Assembly: GCA_030620115.1 (NCBI GenBank)
Contig: JAUXFG010000143.1
Coordinates: 1 to 10,043 of the forward strand
DNA: 10,043 bases
DNA from: Candidatus Fermentibacterota bacterium
Lineage (GTDB): Bacteria; JAFGKV01
Reading direction: 5' to 3'
The first letter of the stretch is position 1. Each line of letters begins with the position of its first letter. Made by a program: the position numbers and the translations under genes. Below are positions 1,500-10,043 of this stretch, one piece after another. The notes under the pieces were generated by a model that saw nothing but the letters and a program-made list of their open reading frames with translations, had not been told where the DNA came from and ran no database searches.

Positions 1500-2129
1500 G
1501 TGTTTCCACTCTTTGCCCACATCACGACATTGACGTACGGAGCGCTCCTATTCATCGGCCTCAGGAGATGGAAACTCCTGGCCCAGCCGATGAAACTGAT
1601 AGTAGGCTTCCTATCGTTAGCCTTTGTCACTGATCTCCTTTGTCTATATCTTGCCTTCCAAAACATGAACAACCTCTTGGTCTTCCATATCTTCACATTG
1701 CTAAGTTATGTGGTACTCATGACGGCTTTTTCCATCTGGGCCGGCAGACGACGATCCCGGAGAATAATGCAACTCTCTATCCCCCTGTTTACGGTGTGGT
1801 GGCTGGTGGCAAAACTGACTATTGAGAAGCTTTCCCGTTTTGATACCCTCACCCTGCCTCTGGCAGCCATGCTGCTCGTGGCGGCTTCAGTCTATACCCT
1901 CTACCATCTTAGCAAGAGCGATGTACTCTTGGTTCACCGAGATCCCCGGTTCTGGGTTTCGGCAGCGGTAATGATCTACTACTCCACTGGACTGGCTACA
2001 TATGCCGTGGCAAATGCGATACTCTCGGACGAATCCATCATGGTTTCGGCGTGGCATATACGTTGGGTCCTTAGCATCGTTTCAAACCTCTGCTTCGGAG
2101 GAGGGCTGATGTGCCATCGGGTGGAATAG
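1500..2129 (+). CDS. Seven-helix integral membrane protein, probable sensory partner of the histidine kinase
   Basis: The 209-residue product is almost entirely hydrophobic. Seven candidate transmembrane helices can be read at about residues 3-21, 31-53, 59-80, 89-108, 117-136, 150-174 and 185-204, joined by short polar loops. The loop at 81-88 (RRRSRR region) is strongly basic and probably cytoplasmic, which would place the C-terminus in the cytoplasm too if the helix count is right. No enzyme motif, signal peptide or soluble domain is visible. The gene ends inside the start of the histidine kinase gene (19-bp overlap), implying translational coupling. I infer that it is the membrane sensing part of a split receptor, comparable in layout to kinases with fused N-terminal 7TM sensor domains. 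An unrelated transport or structural role cannot be excluded, and I cannot name the family. Confidence 0.75.
   Translation: MFPLFAHITTLTYGALLFIGLRRWKLLAQPMKLIVGFLSLAFVTDLLCLYLAFQNMNNLLVFHIFTLLSYVVLMTAFSIWAGRRRSRRIMQLSIPLFTVWWLVAKLTIEKLSRFDTLTLPLAAMLLVAASVYTLYHLSKSDVLLVHRDPRFWVSAAVMIYYSTGLATYAVANAILSDESIMVSAWHIRWVLSIVSNLCFGGGLMCHRVE
2097..2105 (+). promoter_or_regulatory. Ribosome binding site for the GTG-started histidine kinase
   Basis: GGAGGAGGG inside the 3' end of the membrane protein gene lies 5 nt before GTG 2111. It is an unusually strong match to the anti-Shine-Dalgarno sequence and supports the overlapping GTG start over later in-frame starts. Confidence 0.7.
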
Positions 2130-4555
2130 AGCTGTGGTGGGGAGTCATTGCCATCACGACGGTGCTCTTCGTTCTGGGGCTTGGCTTTCTCGCAATGATG
2201 ATACTCAGCGATCGCAGAGCCTTGGCCGCGGAGAAGCGCCGGCGCACGGAGCAAAGAGAAGCCGAGCGGAGGTATCTCGAGCTCTTCCACAATGTCAGGG
2301 ATATCGTGTACATCCATTCCCTCGACGGCACGATACTCGAGATCAACGACTCAGTAACCAGGGAGTTGGGCTACCCAGTCAAGGAGGTCGTGGGCAAGAA
2401 GATGGAGATTCTTTTTCCCATGCGGTTGCGACGCATGGGAGAACAGTACCTCAAGACCATGACGCATGCTGGCCAGATGAGAGGATTGGCGATTCTGGAG
2501 ACGACTGGCGGACAGGAGAGAGTCTTCGAGTTTTGGAATTCCACGGTAGACCACAATGGCGAGTCCGTGGCGGTTCGTGGAATCGCCAGGGATGTCACGG
2601 AGCAACGGAAGGCTGACAAGACCCTCCGACGTGCAAGGCGCCAGTTCAAGACCATAGTGGCATGCTCCCCCATCCCCGTGGTGGTGGAGGCATCCGGGGG
2701 TATCGCATACGCCAATAGCGCTGCGATCCATCTATTGGGAGCTCGCTCATCCCGGGAGCTCGTTGGGCAATCCATCCTCTCTTTCGTGCGGCCGGAATTC
2801 GCCGAGCCGCTGCAAGAGAGAATTCGCGCAGTAGTGGAATATGGGGAACGTGTTCCTCATTCGGAGATAGGCCTGAGGAGATTGGACGGAGCGCCACGAG
2901 AGGTCGAGCTCTCGGCAATTCCCGTGGTGTTCGACGCCCAGGAAGCAGCACAGATTGCCATCGTGGATCTCACTGAGAGGAAGCAATCGGCAGAGGCCCT
3001 GGCCAAGGAAAAGGAGCGTCTCGCGGTCACACTCCAGTCCATAGGGGATTGCGTGATCGCCGCCGACACCGCAGGAATCATCAGCTTCATGAGCCGGGCG
3101 GCGGAAGCCTTGACAGGATGGTCAAGCGAAGAAGCCGTTGGCATACGCTTGGAGGGGGTTCTTAAATTCACCATAGAGAAAGGCGGTGATCCCATTCAGG
3201 ACATTGTGAACACCGTACTAGGAGAAGAACCCCTCTTTGGTGAGGCCGGGGAAGCGTACTTCGTGAGCAGAGACGGTGTAGAAAGGCCTATCGCGGGGGG
3301 CGGCTCGTGTATCAGGGATGACAGGGGACAGACGGTCGGTGTGGTCCTGGCCTTTCGCGATATCACTCCGCGGAGACAGGCGGAGGAGGCCCTTCGGAAG
3401 AGTCAGGAACAGCTCCGCCAGGCACAAAGGATGGAAGCAATCGGGCGTTTGGCAGGAGGAATTGCTCACGACTTCAACAACATCCTCACGGTCATCAATG
3501 GCATAAGCAGCCTCATTCTCCGAGACCTCGAAGACCACGATTCTCTTCATGAAGACGTGGAAGAAATCGCAAGCGCGGGTCGTAGGGCGGCTACCCTGAC
3601 CAACCAGCTCCTTGCCTTCAGCAGGAAGCAGATACTCAGCCCCACAATCATTGACCTCAATGTCGCGATTGATGACATAGAAAAGATGCTGAAGCGACTC
3701 ATAGGGGAAGACATCGACATAGTCACACATAAAGAGCCTCACCTTCTCGAGGTGGAGGCCGATCGCTCCCAAATCGATCAGGTGATTCTTAATATAGTGG
3801 TCAACGCGCGCGACGCCATGCGCGATGGCGGCAAACTCATCATCGAGACCGCCAATGCCTTCTTGGACAAAGCCTACGTTCGTCAATACCCTGAAGTCGC
3901 ACCTGGCCGCTATGTTCGACTCAAGATCACCGACACGGGCTGCGGGATGGATGAAGAGACCCTCTCCCGAGTCTTCGAACCCTTCTTCACCACCAGAGAA
4001 AAGGGAAAAGGCTCGGGGCTTGGGATGTCCACTGTCTATGGCATCGTGAAGCAGAGTGGTGGGCACATCACCGCGCACAGCGAGCTTGGCATGGGTTCGA
4101 CTTTCACCATCTACCTGCCGGCTCTGACGATTCGCAAGACATTGAATGGATCAGATCAACAAGACAGCGATCCGACGGCGCCCGGAGGAGAAACGATCCT
4201 GCTCGTCGAGGATGAAGAGTCGGTGAGAAACTTCGTCGAAAGGCTTCTCCGGGACTATGGCTACCGCGTAATGGCGGCCAAAGACGGCATCGAAGCAATA
4301 AAACAATGCAAAGAGTACGCGGGACACATCGACCTTCTCCTCACCGATGTCGTCATGCCAAAGATCAATGGCGCCGAACTCTACCGTCAGGTCATTCAAA
4401 AACGCCCAGAGATCAAGGTTCTCTACATGTCGGGATACACGGATGACGCCATTCTTCATCATGGCGTGTTGCTCCCGGACACGCGTTTTATCCCAAAACC
4501 CTTCACCGCGGAAGTTGTCGCCCGAAAGGTCCGAGAAACACTGAATGAACCCTAG
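2111..4555 (+). CDS. Hybrid sensor histidine kinase (TM-PAS-PAS-PAS-HisKA-HATPase-REC)
   Basis: This 814-residue membrane-anchored kinase should autophosphorylate on His and pass the phosphate to its own receiver domain. One transmembrane helix (about 9-32) is followed by a basic coiled segment (35-55), then three PAS-like domains at about 52-165, 172-290 and 298-422, each ending in a typical DxT-type linker. The HisKA helix carries AHDFNN with the phosphoacceptor His453. The ATPase domain shows the N-box Asn565 (VVNARDAM), the G1 box DTGCGMD (608-614), an F-box EPFFTT (623-628) and the G2 box GSGLGMS. A C-terminal receiver (694-814) keeps the acidic Glu700/Asp701, phosphoacceptor Asp746, Ser774 and Lys796. 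All catalytic residues are present, so activity is expected. It overlaps the seven-helix gene upstream. No DNA-binding regulator lies in the window, so the output partner is unknown. Confidence 0.93.
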   Translation: MPSGGIELWWGVIAITTVLFVLGLGFLAMMILSDRRALAAEKRRRTEQREAERRYLELFHNVRDIVYIHSLDGTILEINDSVTRELGYPVKEVVGKKMEILFPMRLRRMGEQYLKTMTHAGQMRGLAILETTGGQERVFEFWNSTVDHNGESVAVRGIARDVTEQRKADKTLRRARRQFKTIVACSPIPVVVEASGGIAYANSAAIHLLGARSSRELVGQSILSFVRPEFAEPLQERIRAVVEYGERVPHSEIGLRRLDGAPREVELSAIPVVFDAQEAAQIAIVDLTERKQSAEALAKEKERLAVTLQSIGDCVIAADTAGIISFMSRAAEALTGWSSEEAVGIRLEGVLKFTIEKGGDPIQDIVNTVLGEEPLFGEAGEAYFVSRDGVERPIAGGGSCIRDDRGQTVGVVLAFRDITPRRQAEEALRKSQEQLRQAQRMEAIGRLAGGIAHDFNNILTVINGISSLILRDLEDHDSLHEDVEEIASAGRRAATLTNQLLAFSRKQILSPTIIDLNVAIDDIEKMLKRLIGEDIDIVTHKEPHLLEVEADRSQIDQVILNIVVNARDAMRDGGKLIIETANAFLDKAYVRQYPEVAPGRYVRLKITDTGCGMDEETLSRVFEPFFTTREKGKGSGLGMSTVYGIVKQSGGHITAHSELGMGSTFTIYLPALTIRKTLNGSDQQDSDPTAPGGETILLVEDEESVRNFVERLLRDYGYRVMAAKDGIEAIKQCKEYAGHIDLLLTDVVMPKINGAELYRQVIQKRPEIKVLYMSGYTDDAILHHGVLLPDTRFIPKPFTAEVVARKVRETLNEP

Positions 4556-5307: not shown

Positions 5308-5327
5308 GCGTAGTGGGAGCCAAGATC

Positions 5328-6107
5328 ATGCAACGAGTTTCTCCTCTGCGGTTTTCCATCACTTTCTCGTGGATTATGCTCGGCCTATGCTTAGGGCATT
5401 CTGCCTTTTGCTTCGAACTCACCGTACTGCGCCCATCCGGTGGATCACCGGCACCCGCGGACAATCCTCCTCGCATCGAGGCAATGGTCACCGGTGGAAT
5501 TCTACATGCGCGCTCTTTTCGGACAACGATCGACGGCATTGAGACCGAACTCAATCCGGCACGAGATGGCTTCGATAACGATGGTGACGGCCTCATCGAT
5601 GAGGATGGGGAACAGCTCGTGAGCTGGCCCGGCCCGGACGTGACGAAGTTCGCGGCAATTTGGCCTTGGGCTCTGCAGGCGGATGATCCCGCGACTCGGC
5701 ACATCAATGAGGGCCTGCACGTCCTCCAGCTGGAGGTCTCTCTGCCGGAAAGTGGAGCTCTCAGCGCCGTGGTGGATTTCGCCATTCTCTCCCGGGGAGG
5801 AATCGACAGCTTGATCGTGTTCCCGAGCCCCTTTGATCCGGGCGAAGAAATGGCTCGAGTCGCCTATCGAGTTTTGACCCCGGGGGAAACGAGAGTCGAG
5901 ATCCTGGATTTCCAAGGAGAGACCATCGCCACGGTGTCTTCGTGGAATCAACGAAGCCCTGGGTGGTCTCAAGACCCTGTTGATGTGTGGGACGGAAAAA
6001 ACAATAACGGAGATATCGTGGCAAACGGGGTGTATTTCATTCGTGTGGAATTCAGGGACGGCTCACTTTCTGACGAGTGTATTGAGAAATGCTTGCTCTC
6101 TCACTGA
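5328..6107 (+). CDS. Secreted protein with Ca-binding-like motif and FlgD/Ig-type C-terminal domain
   Basis: The 259-residue product has a signal peptide (basic Arg3/Arg8, hydrophobic core about 9-27, likely cleavage near Ala26-Cys28). The N-terminal part is an unassigned beta-rich domain containing an Asp-rich DxDGDG-type loop at 80-93 (Asp80, Asp83, Asp85, Asp87, Asp91, Asp93), like the calcium-binding loops of thrombospondin type 3 and dockerin repeats. Residues about 162-245 match the FlgD Ig-like fold seen at the C-terminus of many exported proteins, with the hallmark WDGKNNNGDIVANGVYFIRV segment (221-240). I chose ATG 5328 over the in-frame GTG 5313 because GGGAG at 5315-5319 is well spaced. 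The last 19 bp overlap the next gene, so the short Cys-containing tail (DECIEKCLLSH) may partly reflect that overlap. The substrate or partner is unknown; the product probably acts in the envelope or outside the cell. Confidence 0.75.
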   Translation: MQRVSPLRFSITFSWIMLGLCLGHSAFCFELTVLRPSGGSPAPADNPPRIEAMVTGGILHARSFRTTIDGIETELNPARDGFDNDGDGLIDEDGEQLVSWPGPDVTKFAAIWPWALQADDPATRHINEGLHVLQLEVSLPESGALSAVVDFAILSRGGIDSLIVFPSPFDPGEEMARVAYRVLTPGETRVEILDFQGETIATVSSWNQRSPGWSQDPVDVWDGKNNNGDIVANGVYFIRVEFRDGSLSDECIEKCLLSH

Positions 6108-6967
6108 TCCTCATCGCCGCATGCGCGACAGGGCTCTTTGCCGATACTACAGACCCGCCGGTTGACACTTGGCTGTTCGGGGCGCGAAGCGCGGCTCTTT
6201 CGGGAGCTGTGCTCGTTTCCGGGAACGGGGCGCACGCTTTGTTCCACAACCCAGCCGGCATTGCCGGCCGGATGAAGCCCCAGGCCGGCGCAGGGATGCT
6301 CAAGCTCGCATTGGATCGAACCGTCTCCTGGGCAGGCGTGGTGATACCCAGAGGGAGATGGTGTGCGGCTCTTTCGTGGGGGGAGACAGCCGTCTCCGAC
6401 ATCCCCATGCGATCGGAGGATGGGTCGCTCTCCGGCTATGAGTCGTGGCGGAGAGATCGTATTGGTGTAGCATATGCCAGGATGCTGAACCTGCTCACAT
6501 TTGTAGGAGCAGACGCCCATTATGTGGGGACACACATGCCGGGCAACTCAGGGAAAGGCTTCGGTCTTGATGTCGGCGCCGTACGGCTTGTGCTCCCGCC
6601 GCTCCTCTCTTTGGCACTCGGCGTACACGATCTCGTTTCGGTCATACAATATGAGAAAACAGACAGAAGGGAAATCGCCGGCCCGCTGGTGACCGGAGGA
6701 ATCGTTTTAGGGCTCGTCGAAGGCAAGCTTCGATTCGAGTTTGACGTTTCGAAACGGCTTGGTCGGCAGGAGTGGAGAAGCGCGGCCGGAGTCGAGATCA
6801 AGGTGCACGATGGCCTGAAGCTGCGCGCTGGCTTCGGATCCACAGGGATCTCCGCCGGCCTGGCGATTTCCGCGGGTCCTGTAGAGCTAGCCTATTCTGG
6901 TATCCCTGATCCACTTGGTAATTCAGGCCAAGGGGTGGAGGCAATATGGACCAAACACGACGAGTAG
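6089..6967 (+). CDS. PorV/UPF0164-like outer-membrane beta-barrel protein
   Basis: The 292-residue product starts with a hydrophobic export signal (1-18, cleavage probably after LFA). It then shows the typical PorV/PorQ/UPF0164 opening: GARSAALSGA at 31-40 and FHNPAGIAG at 52-60, in which NPAG follows a Gly-rich strand. The rest alternates polar and hydrophobic residues with many Gly and aromatic strand ends, as in an outer-membrane barrel of the FadL-like class. The signal lacks the usual N-terminal Lys/Arg and contains IAAC at 9-12, which resembles a lipobox, so lipidation is possible but less likely. ATG 6089 is the earliest possible start because a stop lies two codons upstream in frame. 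The gene overlaps its upstream neighbour by 19 bp and the next by 22 bp. Family members include type IX secretion shuttles, but no other such gene is visible. A transport role is an inference. Confidence 0.72.
   Translation: MLALSLILIAACATGLFADTTDPPVDTWLFGARSAALSGAVLVSGNGAHALFHNPAGIAGRMKPQAGAGMLKLALDRTVSWAGVVIPRGRWCAALSWGETAVSDIPMRSEDGSLSGYESWRRDRIGVAYARMLNLLTFVGADAHYVGTHMPGNSGKGFGLDVGAVRLVLPPLLSLALGVHDLVSVIQYEKTDRREIAGPLVTGGIVLGLVEGKLRFEFDVSKRLGRQEWRSAAGVEIKVHDGLKLRAGFGSTGISAGLAISAGPVELAYSGIPDPLGNSGQGVEAIWTKHDE
6937..6941 (+). promoter_or_regulatory. Ribosome binding site for the fusion enzyme
   Basis: GGAGG lies 4 nt before ATG 6946, inside the 3' end of the PorV-like gene, and fixes the start of the phosphopentomutase domain at MDQTRR. 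Confidence 0.7.
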
Positions 6968-9417
6968 TAGTGATCGTGATGGATGGCGTGGGAGTTGGGG
7001 AGCTCCCCGATGCCGATGACTACGGGGATCAGGGATCCAACACTCTCGGCAATTTGGCCCGACACAAGAAAGGGCTTACTCTCCCGAATCTGCAGCGCTG
7101 GGGACTGGGCAACATCATCGAGATTCAGGGGATTTCACCCACGAAAACACCGAGAGCAAGCTTCGGAAAAATGAGGGAAACGAGCCCTGGAAAAGACAGT
7201 ACTTCCGGGCATTGGGAACTCATGGGCTGCCCGTTGGTCGAGCCTTTTCCCGTGTATCCGGATGGCTTTCCACCCGAGGTTATTCAGCTCTTCACCGAGG
7301 TGGCGGGAATGCCGCCGCTGGGAAACGTGGCGGCATCAGGGACCGAGATCATCGAGGAACTGGGCAAGGAGCACCTCAAGACGGGAAGACCTATTGTCTA
7401 TACCTCTGCGGACAGTGTCTTTCAGGTAGCAATCCACGTCAAAGTCTGGCCGATAGAAAAGCTTCATGAACTCTGCGCAAAAATGCGTGAGAAGCTTACC
7501 GCTCCCCATGAGATTGCCCGCGTGATTGCCCGTCCATTCTTCGGCAAGCCGGGCCAGTTTATACGATCGCCTTCCAGAAAGGATTACACCGTCGCACCAC
7601 CCAACCCCACGATCATGGATCATCTTAAGACCGCAGGATTTCCTGTGGTGGGTATCGGCAAGATCAGTGATCTTTTCGCGGGCCAGGGCCTCACACGATC
7701 CAAACCATCAAAGGGTCTCGACATCTGTCTTGAGGAGATCCTCGACACCATGGATCAGGTGGACCAAGGCCTCATCTTCGCGAATCTTGGGGAGTTCGAT
7801 ACCCTGTGGGGCCACCGGAATGACCCTGATGGCTTTGCCAAAGGGCTCGAGCAGCTGGACGAATGGATTCCTGAGTTCGAGGAAACACTCCGACCGGGAT
7901 GTGATATCGCGATCCTTACGGCCGATCATGGCTGTGATCCCACGACTCCTTCTACGGATCATTCACGGGAATACGTGCCTCTTCTTGTGTGGTCAGGAGA
8001 GAGCCCCGGGGTGGACCTTGGTGTCCGGGAGACATTCTCCGATGTGGCCGCCACCATCGAGACATTCCTCGATATCGAGATCGGGATGCCTGGCACAAGC
8101 TTCCTGCCTCTATTGCCTGGTGCGGTGATCAAAGATGAAGCGGGATCGGATGAGCCACCTGCCGGAGTACATGAGGAACCATCCCCCGAGGAGCCGGCCG
8201 AAGTACGCAATCTCTTCTTCTCAGTCCTCGAGGACGAAATCGCCCTATCCAAGGAAGAGATAGAAGCCAGTTGGGAAACACAGAAAGAACGGGGTGTGTT
8301 CGCCGGCAATCATTTGGTTGAGATTGGTAAGCTCTCTCACACCGATCTCATCGAACTGCTTGGTCTCGTTCTCGTTAGGTGGCTTGATCAAGCAGGCCTC
8401 TATGACGCTGATGTCAAACGTGCCTTCGAGAAGAGGACCATCACCATCTTCTTGGGAGATGAACTCGTTGACAATGGGCTGATACCAGAGGAAGAACTGG
8501 TGAGCTTCTACGTCCGCGCATGTGGTATACCGTATATCCAGCTCTCCGGACATGACGTGCCATCCGAAACCTCTCTGCTCTTGCCCCGCGAAGCCGCAGT
8601 GGCGGCCGGTGTTCTCCCCATGGAGAAGGTTGAGGATATGGTCACCGTGGCAACCGCGAGACCGGCAGATACGAAATTGGTGGAGGAGGTTTCGGAGTGG
8701 ACCGGATGTCGAGTTCGTACGGTGGTGTCCATGCGCGGCCAACTGCTTGAAGCCTTGGGAAAAACCTATGTGGAGAGTCCCCCTCAGGTGGCTGAACCTG
8801 CGGAGGAAGCCGATCAGGAAAAGGCCGACTCTGAACCCGTAGAGGTGACGGCAGAGAAGGAAATCCCCACCGAGCAACCGAAGGAGCCGACGCCACCCGA
8901 ACCCGAAGGCCGGGAGCCTGTACCAAGCGAACCCCCGGCAGAGACAACTGAGGCTACACCGGTTGCTCCTTCTGCGGCCGAACACCCGGAGGAGGAGGCA
9001 CAGGGCGAGGCCATTCCCGGGAAGGAAATGGAGGCGCTCAGGCAGGCGGCCAAGGAGGCCAGCGAACATGCATATGCCCCTCACTCGAAGTTGAAGATCG
9101 GAGCGGCGGTATTGACGGATGACGGCGAGGTGTTTACCGGCAGCAATGTCGAGAACGACTCATACGGCCTTTCCATGTGCGCAGAACGAGTGGCAATCTA
9201 TAAGGCAGTGAGCAGTGGGAAGAGAGGAATCAAGGCGTTGGCGGTCGTAAATGAGACGGTTGATCATTTGAGACCATGTGGCGCGTGTCTGCAGGTCATC
9301 CACCAGTTTGGACCCAAGACGATCCTGGTCTTCGAATCTGCCGGTGGTGTGATTGAAACTGCCCACTTGAGCGACCTGCTTCCCGATGCGTTCTTTCTGA
9401 TTCAGGAGGATCACTGA
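6946..9417 (+). CDS. Three-part fusion: phosphopentomutase - MshEN-type module - cytidine deaminase
   Basis: One uninterrupted 823-residue frame. Residues 1-391 are a full-length phosphopentomutase (DeoB; deoxyribose- or ribose-1-phosphate to 5-phosphate). Expected metal and catalytic positions are present: Asp13, Ser85 at the nucleophile site (GKDSTSGHW), Asp156, Asp285, His290, Asp327, His328 and His339. After a short acidic linker, residues about 424-608 form a GspE/MshE N-terminal-type module: two helical LGxxLVxxG-type repeats (432-477 and 484-528), then the alpha/beta part with LLLPREAA (544-551). A Pro/Glu-rich linker spans 611-690. Residues 694-823 are a full-length cytidine deaminase with zinc ligands Cys745-Ala-Glu747 and PCGAC (Cys778, Cys781), plus substrate-site NVEN (734-737). 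The product is expected in the cytoplasm. The stop codon overlaps the start of the phosphorylase gene, whose product acts between the two enzyme steps. The role of the middle module is unknown. Confidence 0.9.
9404..9409 (+). promoter_or_regulatory. Ribosome binding site of the phosphorylase gene
   Basis: AGGAGG, 7 nt before ATG 9417, lies within the last codons of the fusion gene. The stop and start share one base (TGATG), which favours coupled translation. Confidence 0.75.
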
Positions 9418-10043
9418 TGCACGAGCATAGTATGACTCGGCTCCTGGATCAGAAGAAACGAGGTGGAGAACTGAGCCCAGGGGAATGGGAGTGGATCGCC
9501 GATGCCTTTACTGCCGGCGCAATTCCGCGCTACCAGATGTCCGCCCTGCTTATGGCCGTGTGGTTCCGTGGCATGTCAAGCACCGAGACATTGGCATTCA
9601 CCGAAGCCATGAGACATTCGGGGTCATGTCTCGACCTCTCCGGTCTACCGAGGCCGACTGTTGATAAGCACAGCACGGGGGGCGTCGGTGACAAAGTATC
9701 GCTCGCCCTGGCGCCCTTGGCTGCGGCCTGCGGCTTGGCGGTACCCATGGTCTCTGGTCGAGGTCTTGGGCATACGGGGGGAACGCTGGACAAACTTGCT
9801 TCAATACCTGGATTTCGCGTGTTCCTCTCACCGGACGAGTTCGTTCGACAGGTCGAGACTATCGGCTGTGCCATGATGGGGCAGAGCAAGGGAATGGCCC
9901 CGGCTGACGGCAAGATATATGCGTTGAGAGATGTCACAGCCACCATCGACTGCATCCCATTGATTGCGGCGAGCATCATGAGCAAGAAGCTTGCTGCGGG
10001 GCCTTCAGGGCTCGTCTTCGATGTCAAGGTGGGATGCGGCGCC
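9417..10043 (+). CDS. deoA: Pyrimidine-nucleoside (thymidine) phosphorylase, N-terminal part, cut by window end
   Basis: 209 codons are visible and the frame is still open at the window edge; family members are about 430-440 residues, so roughly half is present. The enzyme splits (deoxy)uridine or thymidine with phosphate to give the base and (deoxy)ribose-1-phosphate. Family signatures are clear: [13 protein letters not shown] (phosphate-binding loop, about residues 81-93), the [15 protein letters not shown] motif (about 112-126), and the [21 protein letters not shown] and [10 protein letters not shown] segments, the latter including active-site Arg and Lys positions known in the family. The protein could equally be named Pdp by substrate range, which sequence alone does not settle. 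It is coupled to the DeoB-MshEN-Cdd fusion, whose deaminase supplies its substrate and whose mutase uses its product. Confidence 0.93.

Follow-up and report, generated by a model that had tools for sequence, protein, structure and literature searches.

A phosphopentomutase and a cytidine deaminase joined through an MshEN-type module in a single Fermentibacterota protein

The locus

The window, meaning the whole stretch of DNA that was analysed, has 10,043 nucleotides and corresponds to contig C123 of a Candidatus Fermentibacterota genome (G000) of 4.1 Mb, which is 98% complete and available as a draft in 296 contigs. It contains a gene that joins deoB, an MshEN-type module and cdd in one reading frame. 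The features of this gene and of its neighbours are the following:

5313..6107, + strand, conserved neighbour with a FlgD-Ig / type IX secretion-like C-terminus (domain models; same place in the related locus L034)
6089..6967, + strand, conserved neighbour, PorV/PorQ-like protein (weak model match, below cut-off; same place in L034)
6937..6941, + strand, ribosome-binding site (GGAGG) for the fusion, read from the sequence 5' of the ATG
6946..9417, + strand, fusion gene deoB-MshEN-cdd, a single open reading frame of 823 aa with an ATG start (ortholog: L034, 1951-4428)
6955..8106, + strand, phosphopentomutase domain (DeoB), residues 4-387 (scores for TIGR01696 and NF003766 exceed the cut-offs)
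8110..8211, + strand, linker 1, residues 389-422, acidic and Pro-rich, 397-420 predicted disordered (alignment, full-length model)
8212..8523, + strand, four degenerate MshEN_N-type helical repeats, residues 423-526 (alignment to paralog L093, repeat scoring, confident model)
8524..8775, + strand, PF05157 MshEN match, mostly the MshEN_C alpha/beta subdomain, residues 527-610 (Pfam; fold match to MshE 5htl)
8776..9024, + strand, linker 2, residues 611-693, Pro/Glu/Ala-rich from about residue 636, predicted disordered (alignment, full-length model)
9025..9396, + strand, cytidine deaminase domain of the tetramer type (Cdd), residues 694-817 (scores for TIGR01354 and NF004064 exceed the cut-offs)
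9417..10043, + strand, deoA/pyrimidine-nucleoside phosphorylase, N-terminal 209 aa (open reading frame and family-model match)

The genes are tightly packed: the fusion gene starts within the 3' end of the upstream frame (6089-6967), and the start of deoA shares one base with the fusion stop codon. The end of the contig at 10043 cuts deoA, whose remainder appears to begin at the end of contig C172 of the same genome (L146, G000). Elsewhere in the window, positions 2111-4555 encode a hybrid histidine kinase that combines PAS domains, HisKA and HATPase with a receiver at the C-terminus.

Domain models match all three parts within the 823 aa, in agreement with the initial annotation, which had described one frame carrying DeoB, an MshEN-type module and Cdd; the observation of the fusion is thus confirmed. 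No ATPase domain of type II secretion or type IV pilus systems was matched by the domain models across the whole protein. As a possible internal start for free Cdd, there is an ATG at residue 695 that aligns with one in L034, with no well-spaced ribosome-binding site in either.

The enzyme domains

The N-terminal domain is complete and, judging from its sequence, a predicted phosphopentomutase. It scores 432 bits with TIGR01696 (cut-off 341.2) and 471.5 bits with NF003766 (cut-off 256), and it is related to PDB 3m8w with an E value of 1.9e-114. The metal-binding residues D13, D285, H290, D327, H328 and H339 are invariant in an alignment of 25 sequences. At the position of the nucleophile Thr85 of the B. 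cereus enzyme the fusion has Ser85, a residue found there in several other DeoB proteins too. The C-terminal domain is likewise complete, a predicted cytidine deaminase of the tetramer class, with 121 bits for TIGR01354 (cut-off 113.65) and 131.7 bits for NF004064 (cut-off 74). Its zinc and catalytic residues are present in intact CAE and PCGAC motifs. The earlier claim that both enzymes keep their metal and catalytic residues therefore holds, with serine for threonine at DeoB position 85. Given the match of its Cdd domain to models of the tetrameric class, the fusion protein probably assembles as a tetramer.

The middle module and the linkers

Pfam model PF05157 matches residues 527-610 with 49.1 bits (cut-off 23.1). 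The MshEN-type identity proposed initially for the middle part is right, whereas its extent has to be enlarged: the module spans residues about 423-610, with four repeats followed by MshEN_C, and thus carries an additional repeat pair that had gone unmentioned. The predicted structure of residues 411-650 has a mean pLDDT of 85, with values >90 over most of the module, and displays a helix run that would fit four helix pairs, and after it the alpha/beta subdomain. The best fold match of this model is the MshE-c-di-GMP structure 5htl (Z 14.5, 2.8 A, 138 residues), and the top rows in both Foldseek and VIA-align are MshEN/GSPII domains, including PilB-PilZ 7lko and XpsE 2d28; these matches lie mostly at model residues 61-200, i.e. 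the last repeat pair and MshEN_C, and say very little about the first repeat pair. A stand-alone MshEN protein of the second genome (L093, G001) has the same four-repeat plan and is 33% identical to residues 426-616 of the fusion.

Both junctions fall in linkers of the acidic, Pro/Glu-rich kind that had been expected of a real fusion. In the predicted full-length model, whose middle and C-terminal parts were supported by few sequences, the enzyme domains are ordered and confidence is low at residues 397-420 and roughly 604-688. Such predicted disorder could equally be a sign that the domains work independently. In L034, linker 1 contains an additional short helix-like segment (GEEIAQLVREIQEELP) that the window lacks and that resembles encapsulation peptides in character.

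Conservation in a second genus

Among the named genomes of the collections, the closest relative is Candidatus Fermentibacteria JAFGKV010000254.1 (L034, contig C318 of genome G001), which belongs to the same family of Fermentibacterota but to another genus. Its 825-aa frame holds the three parts in the same order, the protein is 60% identical to that of the window, and the same two genes lie upstream and deoA downstream. The absence of relatives sharing the architecture, which had been proposed as an argument against the fusion, was looked at, and the fusion stands. Misassembly can also be set aside. A chimeric contig or missed stops might be suspected in a draft of 296 contigs with a contig that terminates within deoA, but an independent genome repeats the frame, order and neighbours at 60% identity and under codon-level constraint; a misassembly shared by both is very unlikely, and we regard an assembly or annotation artefact as having a negligible chance.

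Between the window and L034, pN is 0.21 in DeoB, 0.41 in the repeats, 0.25 in MshEN_C, 0.29 in Cdd and 0.48-0.49 in the linkers, with pS in the domains at 0.74-0.78, which is saturated. All three domains are under purifying selection, and the linkers are relaxed. At the protein level, MshEN_C is 63% and the repeats are 46% identical between the two genera, against 28-38% for the linkers, which indicates that the module itself is under selection; segments such as RWLDQAGL and GIPYIQLSG are unchanged. No second DeoB or Cdd was detected beside the fused copy in either genome (G000, G001). Neither deoB nor cdd was found in the third genome of the phylum (G002), which is 82% complete and has the tail of deoA beginning at a contig edge. 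We do not take it as a counter-example, because the locus probably lies in a gap.

Rarity and origin of the fusion

In a sample of 386 genomes, the DeoB model matched 157 and the Cdd model 191, and among the matches listed only the two Fermentibacterota genomes have both in one frame. Long DeoB frames also occur in G239, G367, G244 and G371, among others. The long DeoB or Cdd frames inspected were those of G027, G068, G174, G101 and G305. Those of G027, G068 and G174 have deoB and cdd in different frames and are only open frames of G+C-rich DNA, and those of G101 and G305 were likewise judged to be mere open frames that precede an ordinary Cdd.

In 16 other genomes, deoB and cdd are separate genes within about 430 bases of each other, with deoB first in 15 of them; in G068, deoB, cdd, rpiB, deoC and deoA are consecutive. 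Separate neighbouring genes are therefore the likely ancestral state, and their merger with an intervening MshEN gene would be a natural origin of the fusion. The separate deoB-cdd(-rpiB-deoC)-deoA operons, such as that on contig C35 of G068 (L097), have the same enzymes in the same deoB/cdd/deoA order as the window, but the genes stay apart and there is no MshEN module.

Such a merger might have been a mere accident, leaving the module as nothing more than a long spacer with no function of its own and bringing at most an equal stoichiometry of the two enzymes. The common adjacency of deoB and cdd, the flexible linkers and the existence of a stand-alone MshEN paralog with four repeats all fit this explanation. 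Nevertheless, MshEN_C and the repeats are better conserved than the linkers, with some segments unchanged, so we consider a purely passive fusion rather improbable.

We found no description of a DeoB-Cdd fusion in the literature, nor of DeoB or nucleoside phosphorylases with microcompartments, in searches that covered mostly papers accessible without subscription. The architecture is apparently undescribed and made of known parts. What is novel is how the domains are combined and that c-di-GMP sensing seems to have been lost; no new enzyme is involved. Known MshEN/GSPII proteins (MshE, PilB/PilF, NfrB; PMC5013675) have the fold of the module in common with the fusion, which differs from them in carrying two nucleoside enzymes, an extra repeat pair and a lost c-di-GMP motif. 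Other two-enzyme proteins with a C-terminal Cdd occur in a single other family (L138, L139 and L143 in the three genomes G032, G314 and G179), in which Cdd is fused to a carbon-nitrogen hydrolase; the partner enzyme is different there, and MshEN is missing.

The c-di-GMP motif and the role of the module

MshEN domains bind c-di-GMP via two 24-residue motifs starting with RLG (PMC5013675). We scored the tandem 24-residue motif RLGxx(L/V/I)(L/V/I)xxG(L/V/I)(L/V/I)xxxxLxxxLxxQ at 11 positions. Repeat scoring and alignment found the motif-start Arg in none of the four repeats of either fusion. In 500 shuffles the highest score was 7, a value that the best repeats equal or surpass with 7-8 of the 11 positions; the motif ancestry is therefore still visible though the site is degraded. 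With the motif model NF053729 the fusions reach 22.1 and 16.0 bits (cut-off 38), whereas 47-74 bits are obtained for five further MshEN proteins from G000 and G001. Comparable motif loss in XpsE goes with abolished c-di-GMP binding (PMC5013675), and similar losses abolish binding in GSPII-A of PilF (PMC12002112).

As the motif is degraded in both fusions and kept in the five other proteins, control by c-di-GMP through the module is unlikely from its sequence. The initial annotation had suggested that a ligand bound by the middle module might control salvage flux; this is now less likely, because the motif for the established MshEN ligand is the one that has decayed. A regulated switch might still work if the module bound c-di-GMP or another nucleotide non-canonically and controlled the mutase or the deaminase, tying salvage to life style. 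MshEN is, after all, a c-di-GMP receptor domain that sometimes binds with imperfect motifs (PMC5013675), its fold is intact in the predicted model, and GGDEF proteins are abundant in the genome. Against this, the Arg is missing from every repeat, the scores are far from those of the five other proteins, and the losses in PilF had abolished binding, which together make a switch quite improbable in our opinion.

MshEN-fold relatives are also found in protein complexes, among them PilB-PilZ 7lko, GspE-GspL 4pht and EpsE-EpsL 2bh1, all retrieved as fold matches. Given that MshEN-type domains bind proteins as well as nucleotides, as in PilB-PilZ and GspE-GspL, docking is the better guess for the fusion. 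From these comparisons, the module most likely serves as a spacer or as a protein-docking part, e.g. for DeoA or another partner.

MshEN is joined to further partners within the phylum. In L101, L103, L105, L110, L114 and L115 (G000, G001, G002) it is linked to a DnaA-type AAA+ ATPase domain, Pfam matching both Bac_DnaA and MshEN in L101 and L115, and several of these proteins are clustered with a PilB-like ATPase (contig C14 of G000 and also contig C299 of G001). L109 (contig C275 of G001), of 390 aa, has MshEN followed by a region that resembles a ParA/MinD-type ATPase by eye; Pfam matched only MshEN.

Metabolic context and proposed function

The route from (deoxy)cytidine leads over (deoxy)uridine and a sugar-1-phosphate to the sugar-5-phosphate. 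A likely use for the latter is at hand in the phylum, in which a BMC-H shell gene lies beside an RpiB-DeoC fusion in all three genomes (G000, G001, G002). In the genome of the window, the locus, which the initial annotation had not mentioned, is the following:

Contig C96 of G000, L152:4176-10060, SPU-type locus with RpiB-DeoC fusion

This locus adds trimeric shell proteins resembling CcmP and PduT, along with EutN and an aldehyde dehydrogenase of the EutE/PduP type. By the definition given in the available part of PMC4207490, shell genes together with DeoC, RpiB and aldehyde dehydrogenase make it a sugar-phosphate-utilising (SPU) microcompartment. That part of the source reports an aldolase-isomerase fusion from Marinimicrobia and contains no mention of a DeoB-Cdd protein; the SPU system with RpiB-DeoC resembles the present case in containing an enzyme fusion, and it uses the product of DeoB. 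Amphipathic helix-like stretches, encapsulation-peptide-like by eye, are present in the RpiB-DeoC linker and at the N-terminus of the aldehyde dehydrogenase.

The SPU substrate, (deoxy)ribose-5-phosphate, is the DeoB product, so the fusion and DeoA would form a feeder path to the microcompartment. The fusion and the SPU locus lie on separate contigs, and we infer their link from metabolism. We lean, with moderate confidence, to reading the sequence as a bifunctional enzyme that takes part in the breakdown of pyrimidine (deoxy)nucleosides and feeds the SPU pathway, with the module as spacer or dock. The tetramer-class Cdd parts would form a tetramer at the centre, with the MshEN-type modules and the DeoB domains carried outward on four disordered linkers. 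The Cdd part would deaminate (deoxy)cytidine to (deoxy)uridine, which DeoA would cleave to yield (deoxy)ribose-1-phosphate, and the DeoB part would turn this into the 5-phosphate. RpiB-DeoC of the microcompartment may then produce glyceraldehyde-3-phosphate and acetaldehyde, the latter being converted into acetyl-CoA by the aldehyde dehydrogenase of the shell locus. The middle module, having lost its c-di-GMP motif, would space the enzymes or dock a partner such as DeoA rather than act as a switch.

Perspectives

More tentatively, a sensor domain of pilus motors without its nucleotide site might have been re-used as a scaffold for the two enzymes, and possibly for DeoA, in a complex that feeds the microcompartment. 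We think of this as a possible reading that is, on balance, doubtful; if it were true, most of the deoxynucleoside pathway of the phylum would run on fused enzymes. An MshEN module inside a metabolic enzyme, apparently undescribed and with c-di-GMP sensing seemingly lost, would be uncommon and may illustrate how a signalling module can turn structural. Moreover, the fusion offers a single protein for testing channelling between deaminase and mutase. Fermentation of nucleosides by Fermentibacterota is suggested when the fusion is considered alongside RpiB-DeoC and the SPU microcompartment.
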